Source of the DNA: Candidatus Gastranaerophilales bacterium
GTDB lineage: Bacteria > Cyanobacteriota > Vampirovibrionia > Gastranaerophilales > Gastranaerophilaceae
Reading direction: 5' to 3'
DNA: 64,000 nt
NCBI GenBank assembly: GCA_944324425.1
Contig: CALUWE010000002.1
Coordinates: forward strand, 62,001 to 126,000
Below, piece after piece: positions 7,018 to 52,143 of the stretch; position 1 is the stretch's first letter; the number at the start of each line of letters is the position of its first letter. The position numbers and the translations under genes are program-made. Under the pieces are notes generated by a model. It searched no databases. It was not told the DNA's origin and saw nothing but the letters and a program-made list of their open reading frames with translations.

Positions 7018-8205
7018 ATGAAAATTCATCCGATACAACAACAATTTAATACCGTAAAACAAATTACAAAAACCGTTTTTTGCGGAAAAGCAAAAAATAA
7101 AAAGCCTGTGTGCGATTCCTTTGAAAGAAGTTCGGTAATAAACTCAAAAAATGCCGCCTCTGAGAAACCTGACATTATTTTTTCAACTCTTGAAAAAATG
7201 GGAGAAGATAGAAGCAGGTTCAGAAGCTTTGATTTTGAAAAAGAAGGGCTTGTTTTATCTTTAAATTATCCAAGAGAAGCTTTTATTGAAGATGTTGCAA
7301 GCATTTTAGAAGGATTAAGCGAAGAAGAAAAAAGGAGGTTATATTCTGAATTTCATTTTCAATTAATTAAAAATGAAGACAAGAAATTGCTTGAAGGATA
7401 TCCGCAAAAAAGCACAATGCGCCTTAATGACGGCTTAAACGGCACAAGACAAAGATTAAATCAAACAATTCAAAAATTTAGTGAAAATAACCCCGTTCAA
7501 ATTGAAGGCGAAGAAGAATTATCGGAACAATTGACCTTATTATTTGGCGCAATGCCCGAACTTTATACAACTGTTGGCAAAAAACAAAACAAAACTCACG
7601 ATTTTACTTTAGATATTCATACCCTGAATGTCCTTCAAAAAACAATGAACAACCCGAAATATCAAGCCTTGAGCGACGAAGACAAAAAAACAATGCAAAT
7701 GGCAGCTCTTTTGCACGATATATCAAAAAAAGAAGGCATAAATGATGAACTTCACGCCGAAACAGGCGCTATTGCAGCTTGTTCGATACTTGAAAGGCTA
7801 AATATGCCAAAAGAAAAAAGAAGAGATGTTCCAAAATTAATTTTTGAACACGAGTGGCTTAAAAACTATAATTCCCCAAACAAAAACAAAGCGGAAAGAT
7901 TGGACTATGCAAAAAGTTTGGCCAAAAGGCTGAAAAAAGGAAATTTGGCCAAAATGGAAGCAATTTTAACGGAATCTGACATGAAATCGGTTAAAAGAGA
8001 CGGGGCATTTTTTAAACATTATAAAGAAGCATTTATTCAAGGTACAACGGAATTAGCGGAATTTACCGAACAAATTAAAAACTCTGTTTTGATATTTCCG
8101 AATATAAAATTGCTAAACAGAAAAAAGGGTGATGTTGCACAAAATGGCGGTTTGGCCGCAGCGGCGCCCGAAAAAAAGGCAGCCGCCAGCAATGCGGCTT
8201 TATAA
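7018..8205 (+). CDS. HD-domain phosphohydrolase-like protein with N-terminal F-x-G tag
   Basis: 395 aa, soluble. An HD-type metal site can be read: H201 (DIHTLNVL), H233-D234 (ALLHDISKK), H246 (ELHAETG), H278 (IFEHEW), with a later Asp near residue 298. HD proteins are metal-dependent phosphohydrolases acting mostly on nucleotides; the substrate here is unknown. Residues 1-24 (MKIHPI...TVFCGK) show an M-K-I start and an F-C-G motif also seen at the N-termini of the proteins at 13310, 20870 and 25538. The C-terminus is an Ala/Lys-rich tail. It has its own unit between two terminators. Confidence 0.75.
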   Translation: MKIHPIQQQFNTVKQITKTVFCGKAKNKKPVCDSFERSSVINSKNAASEKPDIIFSTLEKMGEDRSRFRSFDFEKEGLVLSLNYPREAFIEDVASILEGLSEEEKRRLYSEFHFQLIKNEDKKLLEGYPQKSTMRLNDGLNGTRQRLNQTIQKFSENNPVQIEGEEELSEQLTLLFGAMPELYTTVGKKQNKTHDFTLDIHTLNVLQKTMNNPKYQALSDEDKKTMQMAALLHDISKKEGINDELHAETGAIAACSILERLNMPKEKRRDVPKLIFEHEWLKNYNSPNKNKAERLDYAKSLAKRLKKGNLAKMEAILTESDMKSVKRDGAFFKHYKEAFIQGTTELAEFTEQIKNSVLIFPNIKLLNRKKGDVAQNGGLAAAAPEKKAAASNAAL

Positions 8206-10218: not shown

Positions 10219-11997
10219 TTAACTCTTTTTTCTCAACGAATTAGAAATATCATATTTGGATAATCTGAGAAATGCGAAAAATACCAGATTAAACAGCTCA
10301 AATGTATATTGTTCCGGAATTAAAAGGCTGTGCGCAATATTGTTTCTTAAATTCTGCCCTTCTTTAGCTACAAAAAGGTATCTGAAATAAAGTAAATCTT
10401 CAAATGTTAATTTGCTAATTATAAACTTGTCATATAACAACAAATTTATATCTTTTTCCCTAACTATATCTTGCTCATTGCTTGTTGATATGGAAGGTTG
10501 TTTATAATTTTCTAAAAACAGTCTTAAAAAAGCTTCAAAACGCAAAACTAAGCTGTCTGTTATTTCAATTAAATGCGGATAATGCATTTTGGGGTTTTTT
10601 ATAAATAATTCGGCTTCTTTAAAATACGTTTCAAAAATTCTTATTATGGATGAACTCCAATTATATTTTATTTTTTTTCCGCCAATTTTTTTTGTTTGTA
10701 AATCAACCATTTGGCTATGTTTATGTAAATATGCAATTGTATTTTGCAAATTCAGTTTTTTTGTTTCAATTCCTTTAAAAAAAATTCTATGAATTGTTTT
10801 TTCGCACAGCTGCCAAACACTTCTGTAATTTGACAAATATCTGTCGTTTAATAGTTCATTATTTGAAATTTTTGCAGGGTGGCTGTTATAATCCAGATAA
10901 ACTGATGTAAATAAACTTGAAAGAAAACCTTCGTTCTTTTCTAATATACTTTTGGCAGGAAAAAGCTGCTTTGAAGTTGCCAAATATCTGTATATTTCGA
11001 GTGGGGTTAATTTTAAAATGTCATCTGCATATTCTATAAAACCGCTAATTTCAGTTTTATGATGAAGTGTTGGCAATATAATTTTATCTTTTAATGAAGA
11101 ATACAATATTTCAATGTTTTGTTTTCTTTTGCTTATTACATCCATTGAATTGTAAGCTTGAATGGCATTAATGCAATGGCCGCATGCAATAATCGGGTTT
11201 TTCTCTTGTTTTATTAATTTTTCATAGCACTTGCATTTTTCTTCAACCCAAGGATATGACAATTTACCTGTTTTTTCGTCTATCTTTTTCCCTAAATCAA
11301 TTACATTTATTACATATTGATATTCTTTATTTTTAATTTTCTTTTTTATGCATTCCCAAAATATATCATCAATGCCTTTATAATCAGCCTTTTTAAATAT
11401 TTTTTTATACTTTAGCATTAATTCAATTATTAAAGGTATAATAAAAATATATTCTTGCCCCGATTTTTTGCAGGTGGCAATTATTTGTTTAACTTCTTTC
11501 TTGATAGGGTGCGTATCTTTATTGGCGCATAAAAACAAATGCAAAGTTTTATCAATCAAATTATTTAATTGATACAAGTCATTTGATAAATTTTTTAAAT
11601 CATCATGAAAAATTTTAACTGCTTCCAAATAAAAATCTGCAGCCATATTCACATATTTTTTATATTTTTTATTGGCAGAATAAAATAAAATTTCAGAATA
11701 AACTGCTTTTAATAAAGAATTTTTGGAATTTTCCGCACGGTTTGCGACATAATCTAAATGTTTATCAATTATTTTGTACGCTTTGTCCATCCATTTTTCA
11801 CGTTCGGGGTTAAAGTTATCCGCTATACCAAATATTGCAAATTCAACATCTATTAATTCTTGTTCTTTGTTTGAAACAGAATAATTTTTACATATTTTCG
11901 TTATTTCAGAATGCAAACCGTAAAATTTGTATAAAGATACATTTTTTTCCAGAAAATCGTATATTTCATCAAAAAGCATATAAACTTTATCCAACAA
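10219..11997 (-). CDS. DUF4209-like protein with HEPN-type RX4H motif
   Basis: 592 aa, soluble, helical and lysine-rich. Most of it I cannot assign. Near the C-terminus, R551-N-N-I-A-H556 within 'LRNNIAHSLL' matches the conserved RNxxxH core of DUF4209 and the RX4-6H active site of HEPN domains, many of which are RNases in toxin, abortive-infection and anti-phage systems. It is a single gene between tRNA-fMet and a tRNA-distal methyltransferase gene, with no toxin-antitoxin partner seen next to it. The terminator of the tRNA serves its 3' end. The tRNA-flanked position and very AT-rich coding sequence make acquisition by transfer possible, but no integrase or att repeat was found. Confidence 0.55.
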   Translation of the reverse strand: MLDKVYMLFDEIYDFLEKNVSLYKFYGLHSEITKICKNYSVSNKEQELIDVEFAIFGIADNFNPEREKWMDKAYKIIDKHLDYVANRAENSKNSLLKAVYSEILFYSANKKYKKYVNMAADFYLEAVKIFHDDLKNLSNDLYQLNNLIDKTLHLFLCANKDTHPIKKEVKQIIATCKKSGQEYIFIIPLIIELMLKYKKIFKKADYKGIDDIFWECIKKKIKNKEYQYVINVIDLGKKIDEKTGKLSYPWVEEKCKCYEKLIKQEKNPIIACGHCINAIQAYNSMDVISKRKQNIEILYSSLKDKIILPTLHHKTEISGFIEYADDILKLTPLEIYRYLATSKQLFPAKSILEKNEGFLSSLFTSVYLDYNSHPAKISNNELLNDRYLSNYRSVWQLCEKTIHRIFFKGIETKKLNLQNTIAYLHKHSQMVDLQTKKIGGKKIKYNWSSSIIRIFETYFKEAELFIKNPKMHYPHLIEITDSLVLRFEAFLRLFLENYKQPSISTSNEQDIVREKDINLLLYDKFIISKLTFEDLLYFRYLFVAKEGQNLRNNIAHSLLIPEQYTFELFNLVFFAFLRLSKYDISNSLRKKS

Positions 11998-13309: not shown

Positions 13310-14779
13310 CTAAGAAATTTTTACATCTGAAAAATAGCTGAAAATATTTGCAAAATCATTCCACGAAATTACTTGTTTTTTTCTTGTATTGTAAGGGTTT
13401 GCAATGGTTACAAGTTGATTTTTAACATCTATATCGCAAATTGTATAAGCATGACCTGTTATAAATCTTCTTTCCGCATCCATATAATTGCCGTATTTGC
13501 CGATATGGGGCGTTGAACAAGTAACAATATGATTGTTCATTCCTTCATTTTTTATCTTTGAAAAAATATAGGGTGTGTCTTGTGCGGATGCTTTATGGCT
13601 GCTGCCAAATAAACCCGTCATTTTATACATTGCATTTGTTGTATAGCCGCCGTTATCTATATCTGCAAACATTGTTTTTCTGTAACAGTCGGATTTCATA
13701 TCTCTGGCATAAGCTCTTTCAATTGCTTTCACACCCAATTCACCGGAAACGCTTCTTTTATCCCTGTTTCCTTTTGTAGATTTTTGCCCGTCTAATTCTT
13801 CGGGCTTTATAACGTAAGATGAGCCGTCAACAAAAGTAACTATATAATTTCCGTTGTCATCAACTTCAATCATATCTTCCAATATCTTTGCTCCTTTGTC
13901 TGTTTTTGACATGGAATATATTGTTGATAACAAAAAACAATCGCCGACATTAGATTGGGAAAGTTCTATGTTTTTTGCGCCGCGATAAAAAGGCCTTACT
14001 TTATTTTTCGGAACAACAAAAGTTCCGTTTGTGGAATCATAATCAATTGCATATAATGTTCCGGCTTGTCTGGTTAAAATCAAATGTTCTCTTGAGGTTT
14101 GAGAATGAAAATCATCAACAACGATGTCTGAATATTTGCTTCTTCCGATTTTTACAATACCGTTTTCATCAACAAGCCCCCTTATATTCGGGTTTCTCAT
14201 ATCAATTACCATGTCGGTTCCTAATATCAACTGACAATCAATCGGTATTGGGGTTTTCCTTAAAGGCTGCAATCTTTCAAATTGAGTATTTTCAGGTTTT
14301 GCGGCTGCTTTTCCCTTAATGGTGGTGCCGTTTAAAGAGTTAAGGTCTGTTGCTATAAGTTGGCCTCTCAAGTTTTTGGATATTTCAAGGTGTCTTCTTG
14401 AAACTTGCTTATCCATTCCTTTTACAAAATACCCTTCTCTTCCGAAAACAATTTTTTTGCCGATACCCAAATTTCTTATTTGCTCGCTTATATCATTGCT
14501 TTTTAAATTAAGAATGCAATGGCCTCCCAAATTAAATTGGGCATCATCATTAACCAAATATTTCTTTTCTGGAATCATTTTTATTTCATCATCATTAAAT
14601 CTTGCATCAATGGGCTTTTCCCCGAATAAACCGCAAAAAGCTACATTATAATTGCCTTTTGCAAAAAGACAATTTTGGCCGGAATTATTATTTTTAATGC
14701 CTGCGCTTGCTTCTTTTTTGGAAAAATTTTGACACACCGCACTGTTGCCAAAACTTATACAATGAGGATATATTTGCAT
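13310..14779 (-). CDS. calpain-like cysteine protease with two FHA domains
   Basis: 489 aa, soluble. N-terminus: MQIYP start and N-V-A-F-C-G near residues 45-50. FHA domain 1 at about 108-157 (GRE 113-115, SRRH 127-130, NG 150-151) and FHA domain 2 at about 208-256 (IGRSK 211-215, SREH 229-232, NG 251-252); FHA domains bind phosphothreonine. The C-terminal half (about 260-489) resembles a family C2 (calpain) core: Q275 and C281 in 'QSNVGDCFLLS', H443 in 'TGHAYTI', N461 in 'IANPY'. Q, Cys, His and Asn are all in place, so it may be active. FHA plus calpain in one chain would couple phosphopeptide binding to proteolysis; a kinase partner is not in the window. Confidence 0.8.
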   Translation of the reverse strand: MQIYPHCISFGNSAVCQNFSKKEASAGIKNNNSGQNCLFAKGNYNVAFCGLFGEKPIDARFNDDEIKMIPEKKYLVNDDAQFNLGGHCILNLKSNDISEQIRNLGIGKKIVFGREGYFVKGMDKQVSRRHLEISKNLRGQLIATDLNSLNGTTIKGKAAAKPENTQFERLQPLRKTPIPIDCQLILGTDMVIDMRNPNIRGLVDENGIVKIGRSKYSDIVVDDFHSQTSREHLILTRQAGTLYAIDYDSTNGTFVVPKNKVRPFYRGAKNIELSQSNVGDCFLLSTIYSMSKTDKGAKILEDMIEVDDNGNYIVTFVDGSSYVIKPEELDGQKSTKGNRDKRSVSGELGVKAIERAYARDMKSDCYRKTMFADIDNGGYTTNAMYKMTGLFGSSHKASAQDTPYIFSKIKNEGMNNHIVTCSTPHIGKYGNYMDAERRFITGHAYTICDIDVKNQLVTIANPYNTRKKQVISWNDFANIFSYFSDVKIS

Positions 14780-14871
14780 TTTAACACCTTGATTATTCAG
14801 ACATTATAAAACATATAAACAGCAAAAAATGTTTTATTTATCCGTATTATTAAAATTTATGAACAATAACA

Positions 14872-14899
14872 AAATGCAAGGGTGAAAACCCTTGCATTT
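14872..14899 (-). terminator. hairpin downstream of the TRL-family gene
   Basis: Perfect 12-bp arms (AAATGCAAGGGT and complement) around a four-base loop. On the minus strand it follows the stop of the 14936 gene by about 40 bp. The stem is strong but the T run after it is short, so the terminator call is moderate. Confidence 0.55.
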
Positions 14900-20869: not shown

Positions 20870-22654
20870 ATGAAAATTTACCCTTGCTGTTCATATAAAG
20901 TAAGCAATTATTCTTCCTTTGACCGAAATAAACCGCACAATAAAAGCGGCGAATGTTATAGTGCTGCAAAACAAACGGAAAGCCATAGCCCTTATTATGA
21001 ATATTTGAAAAATTCCGTTTTGTTTAAAGGGAAAGGGTACAAAAAACCGAGAATTTATCTGAGTTCAAAATATCTTTTTATTCCGAAAAGCGATTCAATT
21101 TTGCGCAGAGGAGAAAAATTGAGACCGGATAAAACAGATTATACAAGAGAAGAAATTAAAAATATTTTATCCGAAAAAACCGCGGATGAATGTACGGCAG
21201 AATATTTAACCAATTATGTATCAGAACTTATTTCCGAAAACAATCCCGATTCTCAATATATAAAAAAGCTTTTAGAGCTTGTATATGCAAACAAATTGCC
21301 TGCAGGCGTTCTTCTTAACTTAGAAAAGGGTTTGGAAGTAAATGAAAACATAAAAAGAGATATTGATAAACTTTTTGAATGTTACAGAGAAGATAAAAGC
21401 GTTGAAGACGCCTTTGTTCCTGTCTTTAAAAGTGATGAAGAAGCAATGGCGGCATTAAATATCGGTGATGTTTGCCAAATTGAAGGTAATGACAGAATTT
21501 CAATCAAAAAAAATGAAAATGAAATTGAAAAACTGTTTATCGGCAAAAAAACTTGTTTGGAACTTTTCCCGCCCGTTGAAAGATTTCTGTACACACAATC
21601 AAAACAACAGGATTGCTACTTCATTTCCGTTTTTGATTCAATATATTCAAACCCATCATCCAGATACAAAATATTGGGCTTGTTTAATGAAAGAAAAAAC
21701 GGCAAAGTAGATGCAACATTCGGCGGTTATAAATATGTAGGTTCAAATGTTTCAAACAAAGATTTCAGCAGATTTGTTTTAAAAGATATTTCAAAAGCAC
21801 TGAACGCAGCAAGAAGGCTGCATCCGTGGTATATGTCATATACAACTGAAGGATTGAGGGCATTAGAGCTTTTAAACAGCGAAGAAGCAAGAAAAAATGC
21901 GGAAAGCAAAATAAACAAAAAATATCACCTGTACAAAAAATTATTGGCACAAAGCGAAGATGATCCTATATTATTGAACGATTTTCAATATTCAAGAAAA
22001 GAAATGAGCGATTATATAGCACTTTATGAAGCATCAAGAAACCCAAGAAAAATTATCTCAACGGAAGATATGAATATTCCCGTTTTTAATATAGATTACG
22101 GTTCGGTTTTATACGGATTAAAACAATTAGACCAAGATTCAAACCCAAAAACCGATACAAAATGGGAAAGATACATTCTTGAAAGATACAAAGAATATTT
22201 GGAAAGAACCGGCAAAAAAACCGTTCCTTTTAAAGAAATTGTTCCCATTGAAACATATCAGGATATTTTCCAATGGGAAATAAGCAAGGATACACCAAGC
22301 CCTTACACATACGGCGGCAACTCATTCTCTGTTTTCGGAATATTTAAGCTGCCCTCAATACTTTTACCCCTAAAAGGCAGCGAAATGGCAGACCGGCTTT
22401 TAGATATGCCCGATATAAATAAAAAACTTGTGCTCACTTGTTCAACTTCATACGAAAACCAAACAAAATTTAATATAAAACCGTTTCACTCATATTCCGT
22501 TACCCCCGTTCAAAGAGGAAAAGAAAGGCATTTTGTGGTTAAAAACCCCATAAACACTGCACAGCAACTTGAAATGACCAAAGACGACCTAAAAAATTGC
22601 TTCAACGTTGTTGAATTCGGGTTAATTGAACCATTATCTTTTAATTTGCCATAA
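20870..22654 (+). CDS. calpain-like cysteine protease, divergent
   Basis: 594 aa, soluble. N-terminus MKIYPCCSYK, with V-L-F-K-G at about 50-54. A calpain-type core is readable: Q243 and C249 in 'QSKQQDCYFISV' (Q six residues before Cys, as in calpains), H540 in 'KPFHSYSV' and N559 in 'VVKNPIN'. The Gly normally before Asp-Cys is replaced by Gln. About 290 residues lie between Cys and His, much more than in the 13310 protein, and hold the long variable part. No FHA domain is present. Its 3' end overlaps trkH (opposite strand) by 21 bp. Confidence 0.65.
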   Translation: MKIYPCCSYKVSNYSSFDRNKPHNKSGECYSAAKQTESHSPYYEYLKNSVLFKGKGYKKPRIYLSSKYLFIPKSDSILRRGEKLRPDKTDYTREEIKNILSEKTADECTAEYLTNYVSELISENNPDSQYIKKLLELVYANKLPAGVLLNLEKGLEVNENIKRDIDKLFECYREDKSVEDAFVPVFKSDEEAMAALNIGDVCQIEGNDRISIKKNENEIEKLFIGKKTCLELFPPVERFLYTQSKQQDCYFISVFDSIYSNPSSRYKILGLFNERKNGKVDATFGGYKYVGSNVSNKDFSRFVLKDISKALNAARRLHPWYMSYTTEGLRALELLNSEEARKNAESKINKKYHLYKKLLAQSEDDPILLNDFQYSRKEMSDYIALYEASRNPRKIISTEDMNIPVFNIDYGSVLYGLKQLDQDSNPKTDTKWERYILERYKEYLERTGKKTVPFKEIVPIETYQDIFQWEISKDTPSPYTYGGNSFSVFGIFKLPSILLPLKGSEMADRLLDMPDINKKLVLTCSTSYENQTKFNIKPFHSYSVTPVQRGKERHFVVKNPINTAQQLEMTKDDLKNCFNVVEFGLIEPLSFNLP

Positions 22655-25537: not shown

Positions 25538-26758
25538 TTAACCTTGCATTTTTTTGTCAATATATTCATTAACATCCAAAGAAGGTTTAAAACTGCCGTC
25601 TTCACCAATTGAAAGAGCAAAATATTCGGTTATTGCATTTTTTCCGATTGTTAAATATGCGGGATAATCGGCAAAATCTTCCATTTCGCTGTCTATATAT
25701 TCATTAATTGCATCAGTCAGCCCGATTAAATATTGAGCCCTTTCTTGCGAAAAATTGCCTTCCTTATCAAAACAAAAACTCATAATTGTATCAAAATCAT
25801 TGTCGTCATCCGAAAGAGGATAGTCGCTCTTTTGCAGTTTTATCATTGTTTCCAAAATTGCATCATGGTTTTTTGAGCTGTCTGAGCAATATTTTCCGAC
25901 GGTTTCTGCAACTTTACTTACAGGCACATATACTTGAAACGAAGACATTAAATCAAGCATATCTTCAATATAGTCTATATCATATGAACCGGAAGTTGTT
26001 TTGGCATAATGTTTTATTAAATCCAATACATCTGATTTGCCGTATTCTTCACCTACATAGTCAGCCTTTTTGACAATATTGGTTTTTCTGGCTATTTCCG
26101 AAAAATCATATCCGTCATCGGTTTTTGAAAGCCCAAAAACTTCTTCCGCAAAATGGCACGCCTTAGAAGACAGCCTCATTCTGTCTTCACAAGAAAATGT
26201 ATAAAGCGCCCTTGCAAGCCCTTGCTTAAATTTACCGTCAAGCCTGCTTACGACATTTCTTGCAAAATCACCGTCAGGGCTCATATTTGCAAGTTCTTCC
26301 AAACAAACCGCTTTGGGATCAAAGGTTATAGTATTTGATTCTTCATGCATTTTAGAATCGTAAAATTCCAAGTCGGCTTCATTTTGTCTTGCTAAGTTTT
26401 CTGCCGTTTGCTTAAATATTGAAATAAATTTTTTAACATACCCGTCGTTTATTTTGCCGTCTTTTCCTCTTAAAAGCTCATTAATTGTATCCTCATCAAT
26501 TTTCAAAACAAGTAAATCTCCGGCTTGCAGCTTTACTATTGATTGAATTGCCAGAGAATCGTCTCTTTTATCTTTTATAATCTGATATTTAATGTCAGCG
26601 GGGGAATTTACACCGAAATGAGCTCTGAGCATTTCTGAATCCGAAATAATTATGTTGTCTTTTGAATTGTCGCCCGTAAAATTAATTTGATTTGAAGGTT
26701 TATTGTCTTTTGTGGAATAATTTTCGATATTGCCGACAAAATTATTGGTTATTTTCAT
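25538..26758 (-). CDS. soluble protein of unknown function with N-terminal F-x-G motif
   Basis: 406 aa from the ATG at 26758, preceded by GGAA about 7 bp upstream; an in-frame ATG at 26827 gives 23 extra basic and aromatic residues with no ribosome-binding site. The N-terminus reads 'MKITNNFVGN', with Q-I-N-F-T-G near residues 26-31, the same kind of start as the HD and calpain-like proteins. The rest is acidic, helical and has no motif I recognise. It faces the xer gene divergently. Confidence 0.55.
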   Translation of the reverse strand: MKITNNFVGNIENYSTKDNKPSNQINFTGDNSKDNIIISDSEMLRAHFGVNSPADIKYQIIKDKRDDSLAIQSIVKLQAGDLLVLKIDEDTINELLRGKDGKINDGYVKKFISIFKQTAENLARQNEADLEFYDSKMHEESNTITFDPKAVCLEELANMSPDGDFARNVVSRLDGKFKQGLARALYTFSCEDRMRLSSKACHFAEEVFGLSKTDDGYDFSEIARKTNIVKKADYVGEEYGKSDVLDLIKHYAKTTSGSYDIDYIEDMLDLMSSFQVYVPVSKVAETVGKYCSDSSKNHDAILETMIKLQKSDYPLSDDDNDFDTIMSFCFDKEGNFSQERAQYLIGLTDAINEYIDSEMEDFADYPAYLTIGKNAITEYFALSIGEDGSFKPSLDVNEYIDKKMQG

Positions 26759-26873
26759 TAAAATTTCCTTTTGCTTGTAAAATAATAAAAAATACCGGTA
26801 ATTAAAAATTGCTTTTTTAAAATTCATTCATTTAAAAGATGAAACAAAAAACGGTTTATAAAATAATTAAATT

Positions 26874-32640: not shown

Positions 32641-33474
32641 TCAACTCATAAGAGAAATGGCATTTTCAAGAAGGTCTTTATAGCTTGACATAATGTTTTT
32701 CGCTAAATCCATCTGCAGTTTTGCTTCCTGATAATAAGTGATATTTGCCTTAAAGTCTACGTTTGAAAGCTCTATAAGCCCGCTTCTTACTTCCCCTCTG
32801 CCTATCACGGGTCTTCCTGAGGCATCTGTTTCAACAAACATGCCGTCTTTATATTGAAATAATTCCTGAGGGTTGTGGAAATTCATAATGGCAAGTTTAA
32901 ACAAGGGGGAAGATTCTTGTCCGTTATTTGCTTTGCCGTATAAAATGCCGTCTCCTTTTATTTCAAATTCATCATATTTTCCTAAGTATTTTCCGTTATC
33001 AGGGTCTACCCAAAGTTTAATTTCGGTTGTAGGAATGTTTAAAGAACCGCCTTCGGATAAAATTCTATTGTATTCTTCTTTATCCAAAGACTTTGTCCCT
33101 GACATAATTTCGCCTTTTTCATTCATTATGTAGCCTTGAACGGTTGAACCGTCCGCTGCTTTATAAACACCGTTTTCATCAAACTTAAATTCGCCAAGCC
33201 TTGTATATGCAATTCTTCCTTCATCGTTTCTCACAACAAAATAGCCTTGACCTTCAAGAAAAACATTTTCATTTGAAGTGCCGGGGATTGCTTTACCCTG
33301 ATCGGTATTTTTCAAAAACCCGTCGCAGGAAATGCTGTCTAAGAATGTTTTAAAAGTAACCTTGTTTTCTCTGTACCCGGGGGTGTATATGTTTGCAAGG
33401 TTTTCTGTTATTGAATCCATCCAATTTATGCTTGCTTTTTGGGTGTTCATAGCATTTACATAAGCGTCATTCAT
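32641..33474 (-). CDS. flagellar hook/basal-body rod family protein (FlgE/FlgF/FlgG type)
   Basis: 277 aa. N-terminal rod motif 'MNTQKASINWMDSITENLANIYTPGYRENKVTF', a central 'NVFLEGQGYFVVRNDEGRIAYTRLGEFKFDENGVYKAADGSTVQGYIMNEKGEI' block, and a C-terminal helix pair ('LIELSNVDFKANITYYQEAKLQMDLAKNIMSSYKDLL'). These are the conserved ends and core of axial flagellar proteins, which assemble through their terminal coiled coils. Length fits FlgF or FlgG more than FlgE. Its ATG overlaps the previous stop (ATGA). Confidence 0.85.
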   Translation of the reverse strand: MNDAYVNAMNTQKASINWMDSITENLANIYTPGYRENKVTFKTFLDSISCDGFLKNTDQGKAIPGTSNENVFLEGQGYFVVRNDEGRIAYTRLGEFKFDENGVYKAADGSTVQGYIMNEKGEIMSGTKSLDKEEYNRILSEGGSLNIPTTEIKLWVDPDNGKYLGKYDEFEIKGDGILYGKANNGQESSPLFKLAIMNFHNPQELFQYKDGMFVETDASGRPVIGRGEVRSGLIELSNVDFKANITYYQEAKLQMDLAKNIMSSYKDLLENAISLMS

Positions 33475-34139
33475 TGTTTACCCCCTTGTTTGTTGTTTCT
33501 TTGCTGTCTGTAAGGCTTGTAGCTTATATTTGAATAAGCTATATTTTGTTCATCAAACCTCACTTTTAAGTAATCTATGTTATTTTTTAAATATTGTTCA
33601 ACTTGTTTATCTTGAGGAATAAATGTTGTATCAATTCTGCCGTCTTTTGCAACTTTTAAAATTACTGTAACATGATCATCAAAATCAAGCCTTACGGATT
33701 TATTTGTTTCCATTGATTTTGTAATTAAATCACCTAAGGTTTTTGAAACTTCCATTGTTTTATAGTTTGTTGCATCTATAACACTTGTTTCATCGTTCAT
33801 TTTAATGTTTATTGTGCCGTTGTTGCTTGCAGCATTTAAGAAAAACATTGCATCGACATTTTCAATTTTTTTAGTGTCATATTTATATGTTTCACCGACA
33901 TTTAAGGTTTCATTAATTAAGCCGTCAGTCATATTGGGGCTGTATTGAAAACTTGAAAAACTTGTCTGCCCTAATGCTATAAATTGGGAAATGTCAACCA
34001 TTCCAAGTTCAGAGTTTTTTTCCGTCAATTTATTTAATTCATCCTGAAATGTTGCCCCTTCAATCGGTGTTATTTGAGGGGTTAGAGTTGAATTTGCTTC
34101 AACATTTCCTTTTAATTTTTCAGTTTCATTGATGTTCAT
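33471..34139 (-). CDS. FliK-like (hook-length control C-terminal) protein
   Basis: 222 aa. The N-terminal half is low in order and Asn/Thr-rich. The C-terminal part, 'VRLDFDDHVTVILKVAKDGRIDTTFIPQDKQVEQYLKNNIDYLKVRFDEQNIAYSNISYKP', resembles the FliK hook-specificity domain ('L.v.....g.v...l......v...l...l..L...L...gl....v.v'), and a basic Gln/Asn tail follows. Location between fliJ and a rod-type gene fits. FliK is usually longer (about 400 aa), so the call is tentative. Confidence 0.5.
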   Translation of the reverse strand: MNINETEKLKGNVEANSTLTPQITPIEGATFQDELNKLTEKNSELGMVDISQFIALGQTSFSSFQYSPNMTDGLINETLNVGETYKYDTKKIENVDAMFFLNAASNNGTINIKMNDETSVIDATNYKTMEVSKTLGDLITKSMETNKSVRLDFDDHVTVILKVAKDGRIDTTFIPQDKQVEQYLKNNIDYLKVRFDEQNIAYSNISYKPYRQQRNNKQGGKQ

Positions 34140-34599
34140 TTTTTTCTTCGATTTCTTCTTGTTCTTTATTTTCTCTTTGGCGGATAAAATGTTTTTGCGA
34201 GCCTACTTCGTTCAACATTTTTAACTCTGCCATTTTTTCTTCGTATAAATATTCTTCTTTTTTGTGTTCTTTATGTTTTTCTAAAACGTTTACCTTTTGT
34301 TCTTTTTCTTTCAGAATTTCAAGCTCTTCTTGAAGTTTTTTTTCGGCTTCCGCCTTTTCTTGTTCAAGTTTTTCGCCCTCTTCATATAAGTGTTTTAAGA
34401 ATTTATCAAACCCGTCATACATTCTTGGGTCCGATTTTCTCATATTTATTCTTGTATCGCTTATATTTTTGTTGTTTTCCTGTATCTTTTTTTCAACAAC
34501 AATAACGGCATTTTGTGCTTCCTGAACAACCTTTAATTGGGCTTCCTTTTCTTTTATCCTTATTTCAAGGAATTTTTGGAGTCTGTATCTAAATGGCAT
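34126..34599 (-). CDS. fliJ: FliJ-like flagellar export chaperone
   Basis: 157 aa, nearly all coiled coil. The start 'MPFRYRLQKFLEIRIKEKEAQLKVVQEAQNAVIVVEKKIQ' is the usual FliJ N-terminus ('F.y.Lq..Le.re..E..a'). FliJ is the central stalk of the flagellar export ATPase. It overlaps the FliK-like gene by 14 bp. fliI is not in the window. The upstream gene is atpG, 111 bp away. Confidence 0.7.
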   Translation of the reverse strand: MPFRYRLQKFLEIRIKEKEAQLKVVQEAQNAVIVVEKKIQENNKNISDTRINMRKSDPRMYDGFDKFLKHLYEEGEKLEQEKAEAEKKLQEELEILKEKEQKVNVLEKHKEHKKEEYLYEEKMAELKMLNEVGSQKHFIRQRENKEQEEIEEKNEHQ

Positions 34600-47988: not shown

Positions 47989-49344
47989 ATGGAAGATAAA
48001 AAATTCAGCTTAAATACAACTTATGAATGGTTTGAACAAACCGTCGGAAAAAGCGTTAGTAACGCGGTTTCTACGTTTTGGGAAAACGATTTTGACATTT
48101 TTTTAACCTCTGTTAATGAATTTGAAAATATTAAAGACGACCCAATATTAAAAGGGGAATTATTCTACACATGCCAGATTTCAATTAAAAATAAACAACA
48201 CATCACTTTAAGAGTTTCATCCGATTTTATAAGAATTATTTTTCATGATGTTTTTAATTCAAACTCTCCGCTTTTTAATTTGGAACAGTTAACAGAGTTA
48301 GAAAGAAAAATTTTAAACGACTTTTTTGAATTTATTGTAAAAAACCTTGATAATGAAATTATCAAAGAAACAGAAATTTCAAAAATTGATCCTTTAAATA
48401 AAACCGAATTGAACTTTGTATTTTTAATAAAAACAAAAAAAATGAACGCCGGTAAATTAAGTTTAAAAATTCCTTTAAACAGACTGAAGTTTAAGTCTAT
48501 ACCGAAAATTCAAAATTTTGAATTTGAAGATTTTCTGAACAATTTTGCCTACGTTGATATAATAACAGGTTACACAAAACTTTCTTTGGATGACCTTAAA
48601 AACTTGGAAAAAGATGACATTCTTCTTCTTGAAGAAAGCAATATAAGACAAATGACCTTAAAAACGGAAACCGTTGAATGTGAATTTAAGGTTAACCCTG
48701 AGCCTTCCATTATGATTGATATGGATATGGACGAAGAAGAAGACAATAACGAAATTCAATATAAGGGAAATATAAATATGCCAAACGACAAAACCATGTG
48801 GGATGACATTCAAATTGAAGTTGCCGCTGAATTTAAAAAAGTAAAAATGACATTAGGCGAACTGAAACAAATTTCAAAAGGCCTTGTAATAGACCTTGGC
48901 CCCGTTATGAATAATGAAATTTCGCTTCTTGTTGAAAATAAAGCGGTTGCAAAAGGGGAGCTTGTCATTATAAATGATAAATACGGGGTTAAAATAACCG
49001 AAGTTTTTGCATCCAAAAAACCTGAAGCAAAAGAAGAAATTAAACCAAATCAAAAAGAAGGAATGCCAACTCCGCCGCAAGGGGCACCGCACCCAATGCC
49101 TCAAGGAGCACACCCAATGCCGCCTCAAGGTGCAAGGCCGCCGCAAGCTGGGGCACCGCAGGGGGCACCGCCGCAAAGGCCAATGCCTGCAAGACCTCAA
49201 GGGGCAAGACCGCCGCAAGCTGGGGCACCGCAGGGGGCACCGCCGCAAAGGTCAATGCCTGCAAGACCTCAAGGGGCAAGACCGCCGCAAGCAGGAGCTG
49301 CCGCACAGGATAAAAACTTTGATTACTCAAACTTTGAGGAATAA
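47989..49344 (+). CDS. fliN: FliN/FliY-type flagellar switch protein with two SpoA domains
   Basis: 451 aa. An N-terminal region (about 1-170) of FliM/CheC-like type is followed by SpoA-like domain 1 (about 186-248, 'YTKLSLDDLKNLEKDDILLLEES') and SpoA domain 2 (about 272-343, 'IQIEVAAEFKKVKMTLGELKQISKGLVIDLG...NEISLLVENKAVAKGELVIINDKYGVKITEV'), the FliN core. A Pro/Gln/Gly-rich tail (about 350-440) is encoded by a 72-bp tandem repeat. Part of the flagellar C-ring; first gene of the fliO-P-Q-R operon. Confidence 0.85.
   Translation: MEDKKFSLNTTYEWFEQTVGKSVSNAVSTFWENDFDIFLTSVNEFENIKDDPILKGELFYTCQISIKNKQHITLRVSSDFIRIIFHDVFNSNSPLFNLEQLTELERKILNDFFEFIVKNLDNEIIKETEISKIDPLNKTELNFVFLIKTKKMNAGKLSLKIPLNRLKFKSIPKIQNFEFEDFLNNFAYVDIITGYTKLSLDDLKNLEKDDILLLEESNIRQMTLKTETVECEFKVNPEPSIMIDMDMDEEEDNNEIQYKGNINMPNDKTMWDDIQIEVAAEFKKVKMTLGELKQISKGLVIDLGPVMNNEISLLVENKAVAKGELVIINDKYGVKITEVFASKKPEAKEEIKPNQKEGMPTPPQGAPHPMPQGAHPMPPQGARPPQAGAPQGAPPQRPMPARPQGARPPQAGAPQGAPPQRSMPARPQGARPPQAGAAAQDKNFDYSNFEE
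49135..49296 (+). repeat. 72-bp tandem repeat inside fliN
   Basis: Two full copies (49135-49206, 49207-49278) and a partial third (49279-49296) encode a 24-residue unit beginning RPPQAGAPQGAPPQR. The first two differ at a Pro/Ser codon. Copy number may vary between strains by slippage. Confidence 0.85.
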
Positions 49345-49354
49345 ATAAGAAAAA

Positions 49355-49792
49355 ATGATTCAATATATAGCACAATTTATAGTCTATACTCTTGCTATGA
49401 CAGGGCTTCTTGTCATAGGATATGTTGTTTATAAAAAAACATCTTCAATAAATGTACTGAAAAGAAATTCTCTTATAAAAATTGAAGATATGTTGAGACT
49501 GCCTGACAGAAAAACTTTATATGTAATAAATTGCAAGGGTGAAGAATTTCTGATAGCTTCATCAAACGATAAAATGTCTTTAATTTCAAAATTAGGCGAT
49601 AATTCTTCTCAAAAGAAAAAGTTAAACAGTGAAATGATAGAAAAATATTTAATTGAAAAACAAAATGAAGATTTTATCGTTGATGAAAATCCATATTTAA
49701 AAGAACAAGAAGCCCAAAATAAAAAATACTTTATAAAAAGCCTTTTAAAAGAATTAAGTGATAAAAACCAAACAAAAAGGGGTAATTATTAA
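49355..49792 (+). CDS. fliO: FliO flagellar biosynthesis protein
   Basis: 145 aa with one N-terminal membrane helix (about 5-26) and the FliO core 'RLPDRKTLYVINCKGEEFLIASSNDKMSLISKLGD'. FliO stabilises FliP during export-gate assembly. Its stop overlaps the fliP ATG by one base. Confidence 0.75.
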   Translation: MIQYIAQFIVYTLAMTGLLVIGYVVYKKTSSINVLKRNSLIKIEDMLRLPDRKTLYVINCKGEEFLIASSNDKMSLISKLGDNSSQKKKLNSEMIEKYLIEKQNEDFIVDENPYLKEQEAQNKKYFIKSLLKELSDKNQTKRGNY

Positions 49793-50433
49793 TGGATGTA
49801 CTTTTAAAAGATATGAACCCTGTCTTACAGCTGTTATTAACAATGGCAATGTTTACTTTATTGCCCTTTGTTTTTATGTGTATGACAAGTTTTTTAAGGT
49901 TTGTAATCGTCTTTTCAATGCTCAAAACCGCAATGGGCACAAACTCTGTCCCCCCTGCAATGGTTTTAATCGGACTTTGCATTATTATGACATTTTACAC
50001 AATGAGCCCTGTTTTTCAAAAAATGTATGAAGCAGGTTCAATTCCATATAAAGAAAACGGGAATATTGTTATGGCGGTTCAGGCAGGGTCTGAACCATTG
50101 AAAGAATTTATGCTGAAACAAACAAGGCAGGAAGACATTGCCTTTTTTATAGAAAAAACAAGAACAACTCGCCCTGAAACCCCTGAAGATTTAACCTTGT
50201 GGGAAGTGGCACCCGCTTATATTTTATCAGAATTAAGAACCGCATTTGAAATCGGCTTTATAATTTATGTTCCTTTTACGGTGTTAGATTTGGTCGTAGC
50301 TAACATTTTGCTTGCATTAGGTATGTTTATGTTATCGCCTACAATTGTTTCTCTTCCTTTTAAACTGCTAATTTTCGTTGCGGTTGACGGATGGAGTTTG
50401 ATTGTTAAAGGTTTAGTAGAAAGTTTTAATTAA
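49792..50433 (+). CDS. fliP: FliP flagellar export-gate protein
   Basis: 213 aa. 'MTSFLRFVIVFSMLKTAMGTNSVPPAMVLIGLCIIMTFYTMSPVFQ' and 'PAYILSELRTAFEIGFIIYVPFTVLDLVVANILLALGMFMLSPTIVSLPFKLLIFVAVDGW' are the FliP blocks. It lacks the extra N-terminal signal segment of E. coli FliP (245 aa). TAATG junctions on both sides couple it to fliO and fliQ. Confidence 0.95.
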   Translation: MDVLLKDMNPVLQLLLTMAMFTLLPFVFMCMTSFLRFVIVFSMLKTAMGTNSVPPAMVLIGLCIIMTFYTMSPVFQKMYEAGSIPYKENGNIVMAVQAGSEPLKEFMLKQTRQEDIAFFIEKTRTTRPETPEDLTLWEVAPAYILSELRTAFEIGFIIYVPFTVLDLVVANILLALGMFMLSPTIVSLPFKLLIFVAVDGWSLIVKGLVESFN

Positions 50434-50924
50434 TGGAATTACTTGTAGAATATATGGCCAAAGGCTTTATGGTAATGCTTACAATTTCAATGCCCTGCGT
50501 TTTGGTGGCGGCGGCAGTAGGGCTTGTAGTTGGTATTTTACAAGCCGTTACTCAGGTTCAAGAACAAACAATTGCAGCAGCACCAAAAATTATAGGCGTG
50601 TTTTTAACCATTATAATTTTAGGCATGTTTTATATAAAAATTTTAACGGAATATATTAAAGAAGGGGGCTATATCGCATTTAACCTTATTCCAAAAATGG
50701 AAACATACGTTCTGCCTGCTGATTATTACCGCCATACAAGCCCTTTTGCAGCTGAAATGAAAGATACTATTTCGCCATCCACAGGTAAAACAAAAGACTT
50801 AATGCAAAACCCCGGCAAAATTCCTTGGGTTGAAAGGCAAGAAAAAAATAAATATACTCCTGCAATTCAAGGGGCAAACCCAAGGCCTAATTTAATTGAA
50901 ACAAATAAAATTTTAGGAAGATAA
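50433..50924 (+). CDS. fliQ: FliQ flagellar export-gate protein with long C-terminal tail
   Basis: 163 aa. Residues 1-90 are FliQ ('AKGFMVMLTISMPCVLVAAAVGLVVGILQAVTQVQEQTIAAAPKIIGVFLTIIILG'). FliQ is normally about 90 aa; here about 70 extra residues follow (YYRHTSPFAAEMKDTISPSTG...), soluble and charged, on the C-terminal side. The tail is in frame, with no stop or frameshift sign. Confidence 0.9.
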   Translation: MELLVEYMAKGFMVMLTISMPCVLVAAAVGLVVGILQAVTQVQEQTIAAAPKIIGVFLTIIILGMFYIKILTEYIKEGGYIAFNLIPKMETYVLPADYYRHTSPFAAEMKDTISPSTGKTKDLMQNPGKIPWVERQEKNKYTPAIQGANPRPNLIETNKILGR

Positions 50925-50927
50925 AAA

Positions 50928-51347
50928 TTGAAATATTTTTTATTGGTACTTTTATTTTTAATACAAGGATGTGTTTTTGCAAGGGAAGTTTTAGCGCCTG
51001 CAATTCAATTTGATTTAGAAAATTATAAAGATTATTTTAAAAAATCAACAGATTACAAGGTGAACCTAAAAAGCAGATATGATTATAAAATAACTTGCGA
51101 TGCTGACATTATAGGAATTTCTTGGGGCGATACCGATAATATTAAAGTTTTTGATATGAAAGATGAAAACGGCGATATTATAGATATGAAAAGCACGGTT
51201 TTAAAAGTTAAATATGAAACATACACTTATATAAGGCTTTATAAATCTACAAGAGAAATAGTGAACATTTTAGTGAATGTAAACCCAATTTATGACAACA
51301 ACATAAATAAAAGCCTTGGGTTATGCACAATTCAACCGTACAGGTAA
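50928..51347 (+). CDS. secreted, possibly lipoprotein, encoded between fliQ and fliR
   Basis: 139 aa from a TTG at 50928 with GGAAG about 8 bp upstream. A short signal peptide ends LIQGC, which could be a lipobox (Cys15), though Gln at -2 is unusual. The mature part is charged and beta-rich with 'YKITCDADIIGISWGD' and 'LKVKYETYTYIRLYKSTREIVNILVNVNP'. No known family. It starts 3 bp after fliQ and ends 10 bp before fliR, so it is part of the operon. Confidence 0.65.
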   Translation: MKYFLLVLLFLIQGCVFAREVLAPAIQFDLENYKDYFKKSTDYKVNLKSRYDYKITCDADIIGISWGDTDNIKVFDMKDENGDIIDMKSTVLKVKYETYTYIRLYKSTREIVNILVNVNPIYDNNINKSLGLCTIQPYR

Positions 51348-51357
51348 AGGGGAATAA

Positions 51358-52143
51358 ATGGAATCAAGCTTATTTTTTATGCAATTTGCAAAATTATTCC
51401 CTGAATTGAATTTGGCACTTGGCGCAGGGATTATGATTTTTGCACGGTTAATTGGAATAATGCAATTTGCACCGCCTTTTAACAGAAGCGAAATGCCTGC
51501 AATGGTAAGAATTTCATTTGCACTTATTATAACAATTATTTTATGCATTATTATGAAACCAACACCCATACCCGATAATACTTCACTTTTGCTTGGAATT
51601 ATTTTGAATTTTTCATTCGGGTTTATTATTGGTTTTATTGTAAATTGCATTATAGCTGCAATTTCAGCTGCAGGAGATATTATAAACAGCCAGCTTGGCG
51701 TGTCATCTGCCATGATTTTAGACCCCTCAACAGGAACTCAAGCATCTTTAATGGGGAACTATTTTACAATTTTAGCTGTTATAATTTTTATGCAAATAGG
51801 TGGAATTTATTGGGTATTAGACGCATTTATAAGAAGCTTCGATGTTTATCCGATGTTTTCGGCTTCCATACCGCTGACCAAAGTCATAAATATGGATTAT
51901 TTGGTTAAAATCACCTCTAACACTTTTATTGTAGGTATGCAAATAGCAGCACCGGTTTTACTTGCAACATTGGGGCAAGATATTATATTGGGTACAATCA
52001 GCAAAACCGCACCTCAGGTTAACGTTTTTCAGATGAGCTTTCTTTTTAAACCCGTTATGGGAGCATTACTTTTAATTTGGGTTATGCCGATGTTAATTAA
52101 TGTTATAAGTGATTATTTAACATCATTTTCAAGCTTGTTTTAA
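51358..52143 (+). CDS. fliR: FliR flagellar export-gate protein
   Basis: 261 aa, about six membrane helices. 'RLIGIMQFAPPFNRSEMPAMVRISFALIITIIL', 'AAGDIINSQLGVSSAMILDPSTGTQASLMGNYFTILAVIIFM' and 'APVLLATLGQDIILGTISKTAPQVNVFQMSFLFKPVMGALLLI' are FliR features. It completes the FliP5-Q4-R1 gate. flhA and flhB do not follow here. Confidence 0.93.
   Translation: MESSLFFMQFAKLFPELNLALGAGIMIFARLIGIMQFAPPFNRSEMPAMVRISFALIITIILCIIMKPTPIPDNTSLLLGIILNFSFGFIIGFIVNCIIAAISAAGDIINSQLGVSSAMILDPSTGTQASLMGNYFTILAVIIFMQIGGIYWVLDAFIRSFDVYPMFSASIPLTKVINMDYLVKITSNTFIVGMQIAAPVLLATLGQDIILGTISKTAPQVNVFQMSFLFKPVMGALLLIWVMPMLINVISDYLTSFSSLF

Follow-up and report, generated by a model that had tools for sequence, protein, structure and literature searches.

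Gene locus and genomic context

The window, that is, the whole stretch of 64,000 nucleotides analysed from a Candidatus Gastranaerophilales bacterium, carries a gene for a protein in which two FHA domains precede a calpain-like (Peptidase_C2) core. The features of the gene and its product are listed in Table 1. A terminator-like stem lies between this gene and the TRL-like gene upstream, which suggests that the FHA-calpain gene is transcribed alone, as its own unit.

Table 1. Features of the FHA-calpain gene and its predicted product (positions in the window)
Feature	Position	Strand	Remarks
FHA-FHA-calpain protein	13310..14779	-	complete ORF, 489 aa, ATG start
Shine-Dalgarno-like AAGGTG	14785..14790	-	5 bases upstream of the ATG; read from the sequence
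Terminator-like stem	14872..14899	-	12 pairs
Predicted disordered N-terminal leader	14624..14779	-	residues 1-52; pLDDT <50; little conserved except for its end
Conserved leader end NYNVAFCGLF	14624..14653	-	residues 43-52; consensus roughly xYN[VM][AS]FxGLF in 6 of 7 orthologues
FHA domain 1	14312..14584	-	about residues 66-156, boundaries approximate; pocket signature G113 R114, S127 R128 H130, N150 G151 T152
FHA domain 2	14000..14278	-	about residues 168-260, boundaries approximate; pocket signature G212 R213, S229 R230 H232, N251 G252 T253
Peptidase_C2 (calpain-like) core	13310..13990	-	residues 264-489; almost no linker after FHA2
Predicted nucleophile Cys281	13937..13939	-	Gln275 six residues ahead
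Predicted catalytic His443	13451..13453	-	
Predicted catalytic Asn461	13397..13399	-	

The GC content of the gene was 34.6%, within the range of the host's genes (34.1 ± 3.8%), and a recent arrival as foreign DNA was therefore rejected, no trace of one being seen. A phage or plasmid origin was rejected as well, with no relatives among 50,697 phage records, 72,556 plasmids and the IMG/VR contigs. The PADLOC models gave no match to the protein at E ≤ 0.01, on which grounds membership of a defence system was dismissed. The neighbouring genes were unlike among the host genome (G000), G153, G244 and G390, so no operon partner was accepted; in the comparison of neighbourhoods, common flanks were found in three genomes of genus g41 only.

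Elsewhere in the window, a 592-aa protein (10219-11997, - strand) matched the PADLOC candidate defence family PDC-S39 (1.9e-12) and, weakly, DUF4209. In addition, the regions 47989-52143 and 32641-34599 hold flagellar export and C-ring genes, with a FliM/N-like domain found by Pfam and fliP, fliQ, fliR and a fliJ-like gene recognised by eye. From these genes, the host probably carries a flagellar type III export apparatus.

Tandem FHA domains

The Pfam FHA profile (PF00498) matched two stretches of the protein (6e-19), both over the cut-off. The phosphothreonine contacts of known FHA domains are made by Arg, Ser and Asn, and the corresponding pocket signature GR / SRxH / NGT was intact in both domains of the window protein. 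The FHA profile of the orthologues aligned with 3po8. A model of the FHA part only (residues 53-268) reached a pLDDT of 85.5 with a pTM of 0.49, so that it is uncertain how the two domains lie relative to each other. In a Foldseek search with this model, nearly all of the top 50 matches were FHA domains, among them those of GarA, ArnA, EmbR, Rad53 and Chk2, with probabilities of up to 1.00 and weak E values (best 3.5e-3). By sequence and predicted fold, the window protein thus carries true FHA domains.

Under Hanks kinases, GarA, OdhI, FhaA and FhaB serve as adaptors or inhibit enzymes, and to our knowledge none of them carries a protease. The fold and the phosphothreonine-pocket residues of these proteins (e.g. 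3po8, 6i2p) are shared by the window protein.

Calpain-like core

The Peptidase_C2 profile (PF00648) matched residues 264-466 (4.3e-14; 52.7 bits, the cut-off being 23.8). The oxyanion Gln and the catalytic Cys, His and Asn were found in the expected order, at exactly the positions given in the preliminary description (Q275, C281, H443 and N461). The same residues prevail in the calpain-like domains of this bacterial family (n = 50), with Gln in 46, Cys in 49, His in 47 and Asn in 45. Furthermore, the AlphaFold2 model of the full protein had a mean pLDDT of 78 and a pTM of 0.70, and its top 38 matches in the PDB were all calpain protease cores (probability 1.00), which bears out the papain-like core on which the preliminary description depended. 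By sequence and predicted fold, the protein belongs to family C2. The contacts among C281, H443 and N461 are inferred from the alignment and the fold.

A profile of 38 sequences aligned the active-site motif and the His and Asn with those of calpain-9 and calpain-1. Compared with these eukaryotic cores (2p0r and 1tl9), which are alike in fold and active-site alignment, the window core is smaller, with about 18% identity, and the protein is without the calcium-binding accessory domains of eukaryotic calpains. The chain ends 28 residues beyond N461, and the second core Ca2+ site is therefore probably absent. Position C-9, nine residues before C281, is Asp in calpains and a presumed ligand of the core Ca2+ sites of classical calpains; it is E272 in the window protein and reads E/E/E/F/E/Q/K across the orthologues. 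E354 was kept in all orthologues except the degenerate copy described below.

Orthologues and spread of the architecture

A profile of two orthologues was run against 383 genomes of the order and against class and phylum samples. Six copies of the full architecture besides the window protein were obtained from the genomes of the order, and no further full-length copy came from the class and phylum samples; a query of GTDB contigs with a single protein gave nothing useful. All six relatives have their FHA domains before the calpain core, so that the domain order noted in the preliminary description is conserved. The fusion is real and is conserved in a few related species. The orthologues from G153 and from G244, a genome of another family, have 50-51% identity and two FHA domains each, and those from G286, G388 and G390 have three. 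In the alignment, none of the six non-degenerate proteins had lost GR/SRxH or the catalytic Q/C/H/N, and the window protein and the five intact orthologues also kept the flanking GDC motif. The two-FHA proteins have a complete NGT in each FHA domain; the Asn was lost in FHA1 of the three-FHA forms.

In a tree of the calpain domain, the two-FHA proteins formed a clade (support 99/99) of the host, G153 and G244 of another family, and genus g41, of the same family as the host, fell outside it. The grouping requires a transfer between lineages, or a duplication with loss. The placing of the long FHA proteins described below beside the orthologues in this tree was not trusted, the branch having a length of 3.

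The sixth relative, from G395 (L087:1471-3414), is degenerate. It has three FHA domains and an intact frame of 647 aa, and it occupies the same genomic site as the copies of G286 and G388, L087 being syntenic with L085 and L086. The catalytic Cys is replaced by Asn and the catalytic Asn by Asp, and the Gln and the conserved Glu are lost too; the FHA arginines of the three domains have become Lys, Lys and Thr. This joint loss, set beside the joint retention in the intact copies, points to a reader and a cutter that act together as a single unit, although one case is no proof. The copy could also be a decaying pseudogene in which everything is eroding.

N-terminal leader

No signal peptide was apparent in the leader by eye, and no known secretion signal was identified. 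Its end resembles a recurrent N-terminal pattern, in which a start near MKI and a low-complexity stretch are followed by [VIL]xFxG. The pattern was seen in four proteins of the window (7018-8205, 13310-14779, 20870-22654 and 25538-26827) and, outside it, in L003, L008, L009, L059 and L062-L081. The N-terminal F.G motif was nominally enriched in the host genome sample (Fisher p = 1.8e-4, the motif having been chosen post hoc), but this was not repeated in the samples of G244 and G153 (p = 0.63). A genome-wide export leader was accordingly not upheld.

Protein kinases and FHA domains in carrier genomes

The preliminary description had suggested looking for a Ser/Thr kinase partner, and the host genome (1.84 Mb, 98% complete) does encode two Pkinase proteins with recognisable kinase motifs (L008 and L009). 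They are eukaryotic-like kinases with long unannotated C-terminal parts (L008:796-2169 on contig C9 and L009:466-2136 on C7 of G000), and the neighbour of L009 is a protein of 414 aa that starts similarly and matched no Pfam family. Among 19 genomes, however, Pkinase (Hanks-type) genes, the family to which the search was confined, were present in four of the seven carriers of the FHA-calpain gene (G000, G286, G388 and G390) and about as often in non-carriers (7/12). None was found even at E ≤ 5 in G153 (97% complete), G244 (99%) or G395 (86%); of 14 control genomes, 12 gave kinases in the same search. In the neighbourhoods that were read, no gene beside the FHA-calpain gene was recognised as a kinase gene.

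The FHA domain, in contrast, follows the gene, being present in 7/7 carriers and 0/12 non-carriers. In six of the seven carriers, the host included, it was found nowhere else in the genome, and therefore these domains do not belong to any wider FHA network there. With Pkinase present or absent regardless of the gene, the protein is not part of a simple in-house pathway of kinase and FHA domain. The carriers without Pkinase need another type of kinase, a foreign mark, or docking that is independent of phosphorylation.

Comparison with known calpains

The CysPc core, with Cys-His-Asn and a preceding Gln, is common to the window protein and the non-classical bacterial calpains of family C2 (Rawlings 2015, PMC4631099; PMC9380684), and the window protein has no EF-hand or calpain III domain. 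The accessory domains listed for bacterial calpains are PPC, WXG100, F5_F8_type_C, HemolysinCabind, CARDB and the like (PMC4631099, PMC9380684). In the window protein, tandem FHA domains adjoin the core instead, and FHA is mentioned in neither survey. A search of the open-licence literature for FHA with calpain, Peptidase C2 or cysteine protease returned no such fusion; as far as searched, the combination is undescribed, which does not prove priority. In the 2015 survey, a single bacterial calpain is named as having been examined biochemically (PMC4631099), and the FHA-calpain protein offers a route into the function of these enzymes.

Proposed mechanism and alternative explanations

The window protein is probably an active calpain-like cysteine endopeptidase of family C2 whose tandem FHA domains set its choice of target or its activity. 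In the version that we find most likely, both FHA domains would dock on one or more proteins bearing phosphothreonine; given two or three readers per protease, the phosphothreonines would probably lie in a cluster. Docking would place the C2 core, which adjoins the FHA domains directly, at the target, and the core would then make one or a few cuts in it, in the manner of calpains. Cleavage, phosphothreonine binding by the FHA domains and the coupling of both are what we infer. The phosphorylation-guided proteolysis of the preliminary description is thus plausible in view of the intact catalytic set, the phosphothreonine pockets and the conserved order, but its source of phosphorylation in the same cell did not find support. 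A circuit in which the cell's own Hanks-type kinase marks the targets of the protease is very doubtful: the two Pkinase proteins of the host would suit it, but the kinase does not follow the gene, none was recognised in the neighbourhoods, and two near-complete carriers, G153 and G244, are without one. For these two the circuit is refuted unless a Thr kinase of a different type is present.

Export would place the phosphorylation in another organism. The protein might be an effector that reads phosphothreonine on proteins of a host cell or a neighbouring microbe and cuts them, the disordered leader with its conserved end serving as the targeting signal. This would be one version of the favoured explanation, so that the two confidences overlap, and taken by itself it is somewhat unlikely. 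It is consistent with the intact FHA pockets of carriers without detected Pkinase (G395 aside), with the conservation of the leader end while the rest of the leader varies, with the patchy distribution of the gene, and with the F.G motif in the host kinase L008 and some other proteins, nominally enriched as it is. Against it stand the lack of a secretion signal recognisable by eye and of the enrichment in the two other genomes' samples. Export of the protein is a possibility only. The wider proposal, of a family of phospho-reading calpains, some of them in bacteria without Hanks-type kinases, that are exported and cut only the phosphorylated form of foreign proteins, is quite unlikely.

FHA domains are able to act without phosphorylation too, and those of the window protein could be a scaffold or lid, which would gate the C2 core by holding or inhibiting it and would not read the substrate. 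Hardly any linker separates FHA2 from the catalytic helix, and the three carriers without a kinase would then be no puzzle; the loss of the Asn in FHA1 of the three-FHA forms points mildly in the same direction. We regard this explanation as unlikely: in the two-FHA proteins both domains retain the phosphothreonine-contacting Arg, Ser and Asn, which a pure scaffold could do without. That the protein is a binding protein with an inactive calpain-like domain (a pseudoprotease) is highly improbable: the G395 orthologue has indeed lost its catalytic residues, but Q, C, H, N and the GDC motif persist in the window protein and five orthologues.

If the FHA domains of the proposed endopeptidase select phosphorylated targets, a reversible phospho-mark would be turned into an irreversible cut within a single chain, and the protein could become a genetically encoded tool for phospho-dependent cleavage. 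The joint decay in G395 and the carriers without a kinase make the question directly testable.

Other FHA and calpain-like proteins of the family

Two more calpain-like proteins are encoded on other contigs of the host genome. In the family, 120 of 239 genomes gave calpain-like or FHA-like matches, most of which fell in the calpain part, and a genome often had several. The 2015 survey stated that a bacterium has only one calpain (PMC4631099), and a 2022 survey of cyanobacteria already reported three in one species (PMC9380684). Our finding of several matches per genome goes against the former statement. The calpain-like proteins are strongly expanded across the family (e.g. L038, contig C41 of G011), with up to six per genome, some in tandem, and their N-terminal parts differ greatly in length.

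Further fusions of FHA with a papain fold occur in the family, namely FHA-FHA-C2 (1323-1327 aa), FHA-FHA-EDR1 peptidase-like and EDR1-FHA. Like the window protein, those of L057, L060, L049, L050 and L052 combine one or more FHA domains with a C2 or EDR1-type peptidase-like domain. Unlike it, they are large, with FHA and protease distant or reordered, and they are not orthologous to it over the full length. As these large proteins are quite different, the combination appears to have been assembled more than once. Together with L054, they make up a set of large FHA proteins (695-2113 aa) from the same bacterial family, most of which have a C2 or EDR1-type peptidase-like domain and some of which carry LysM and an EF-hand-like motif.
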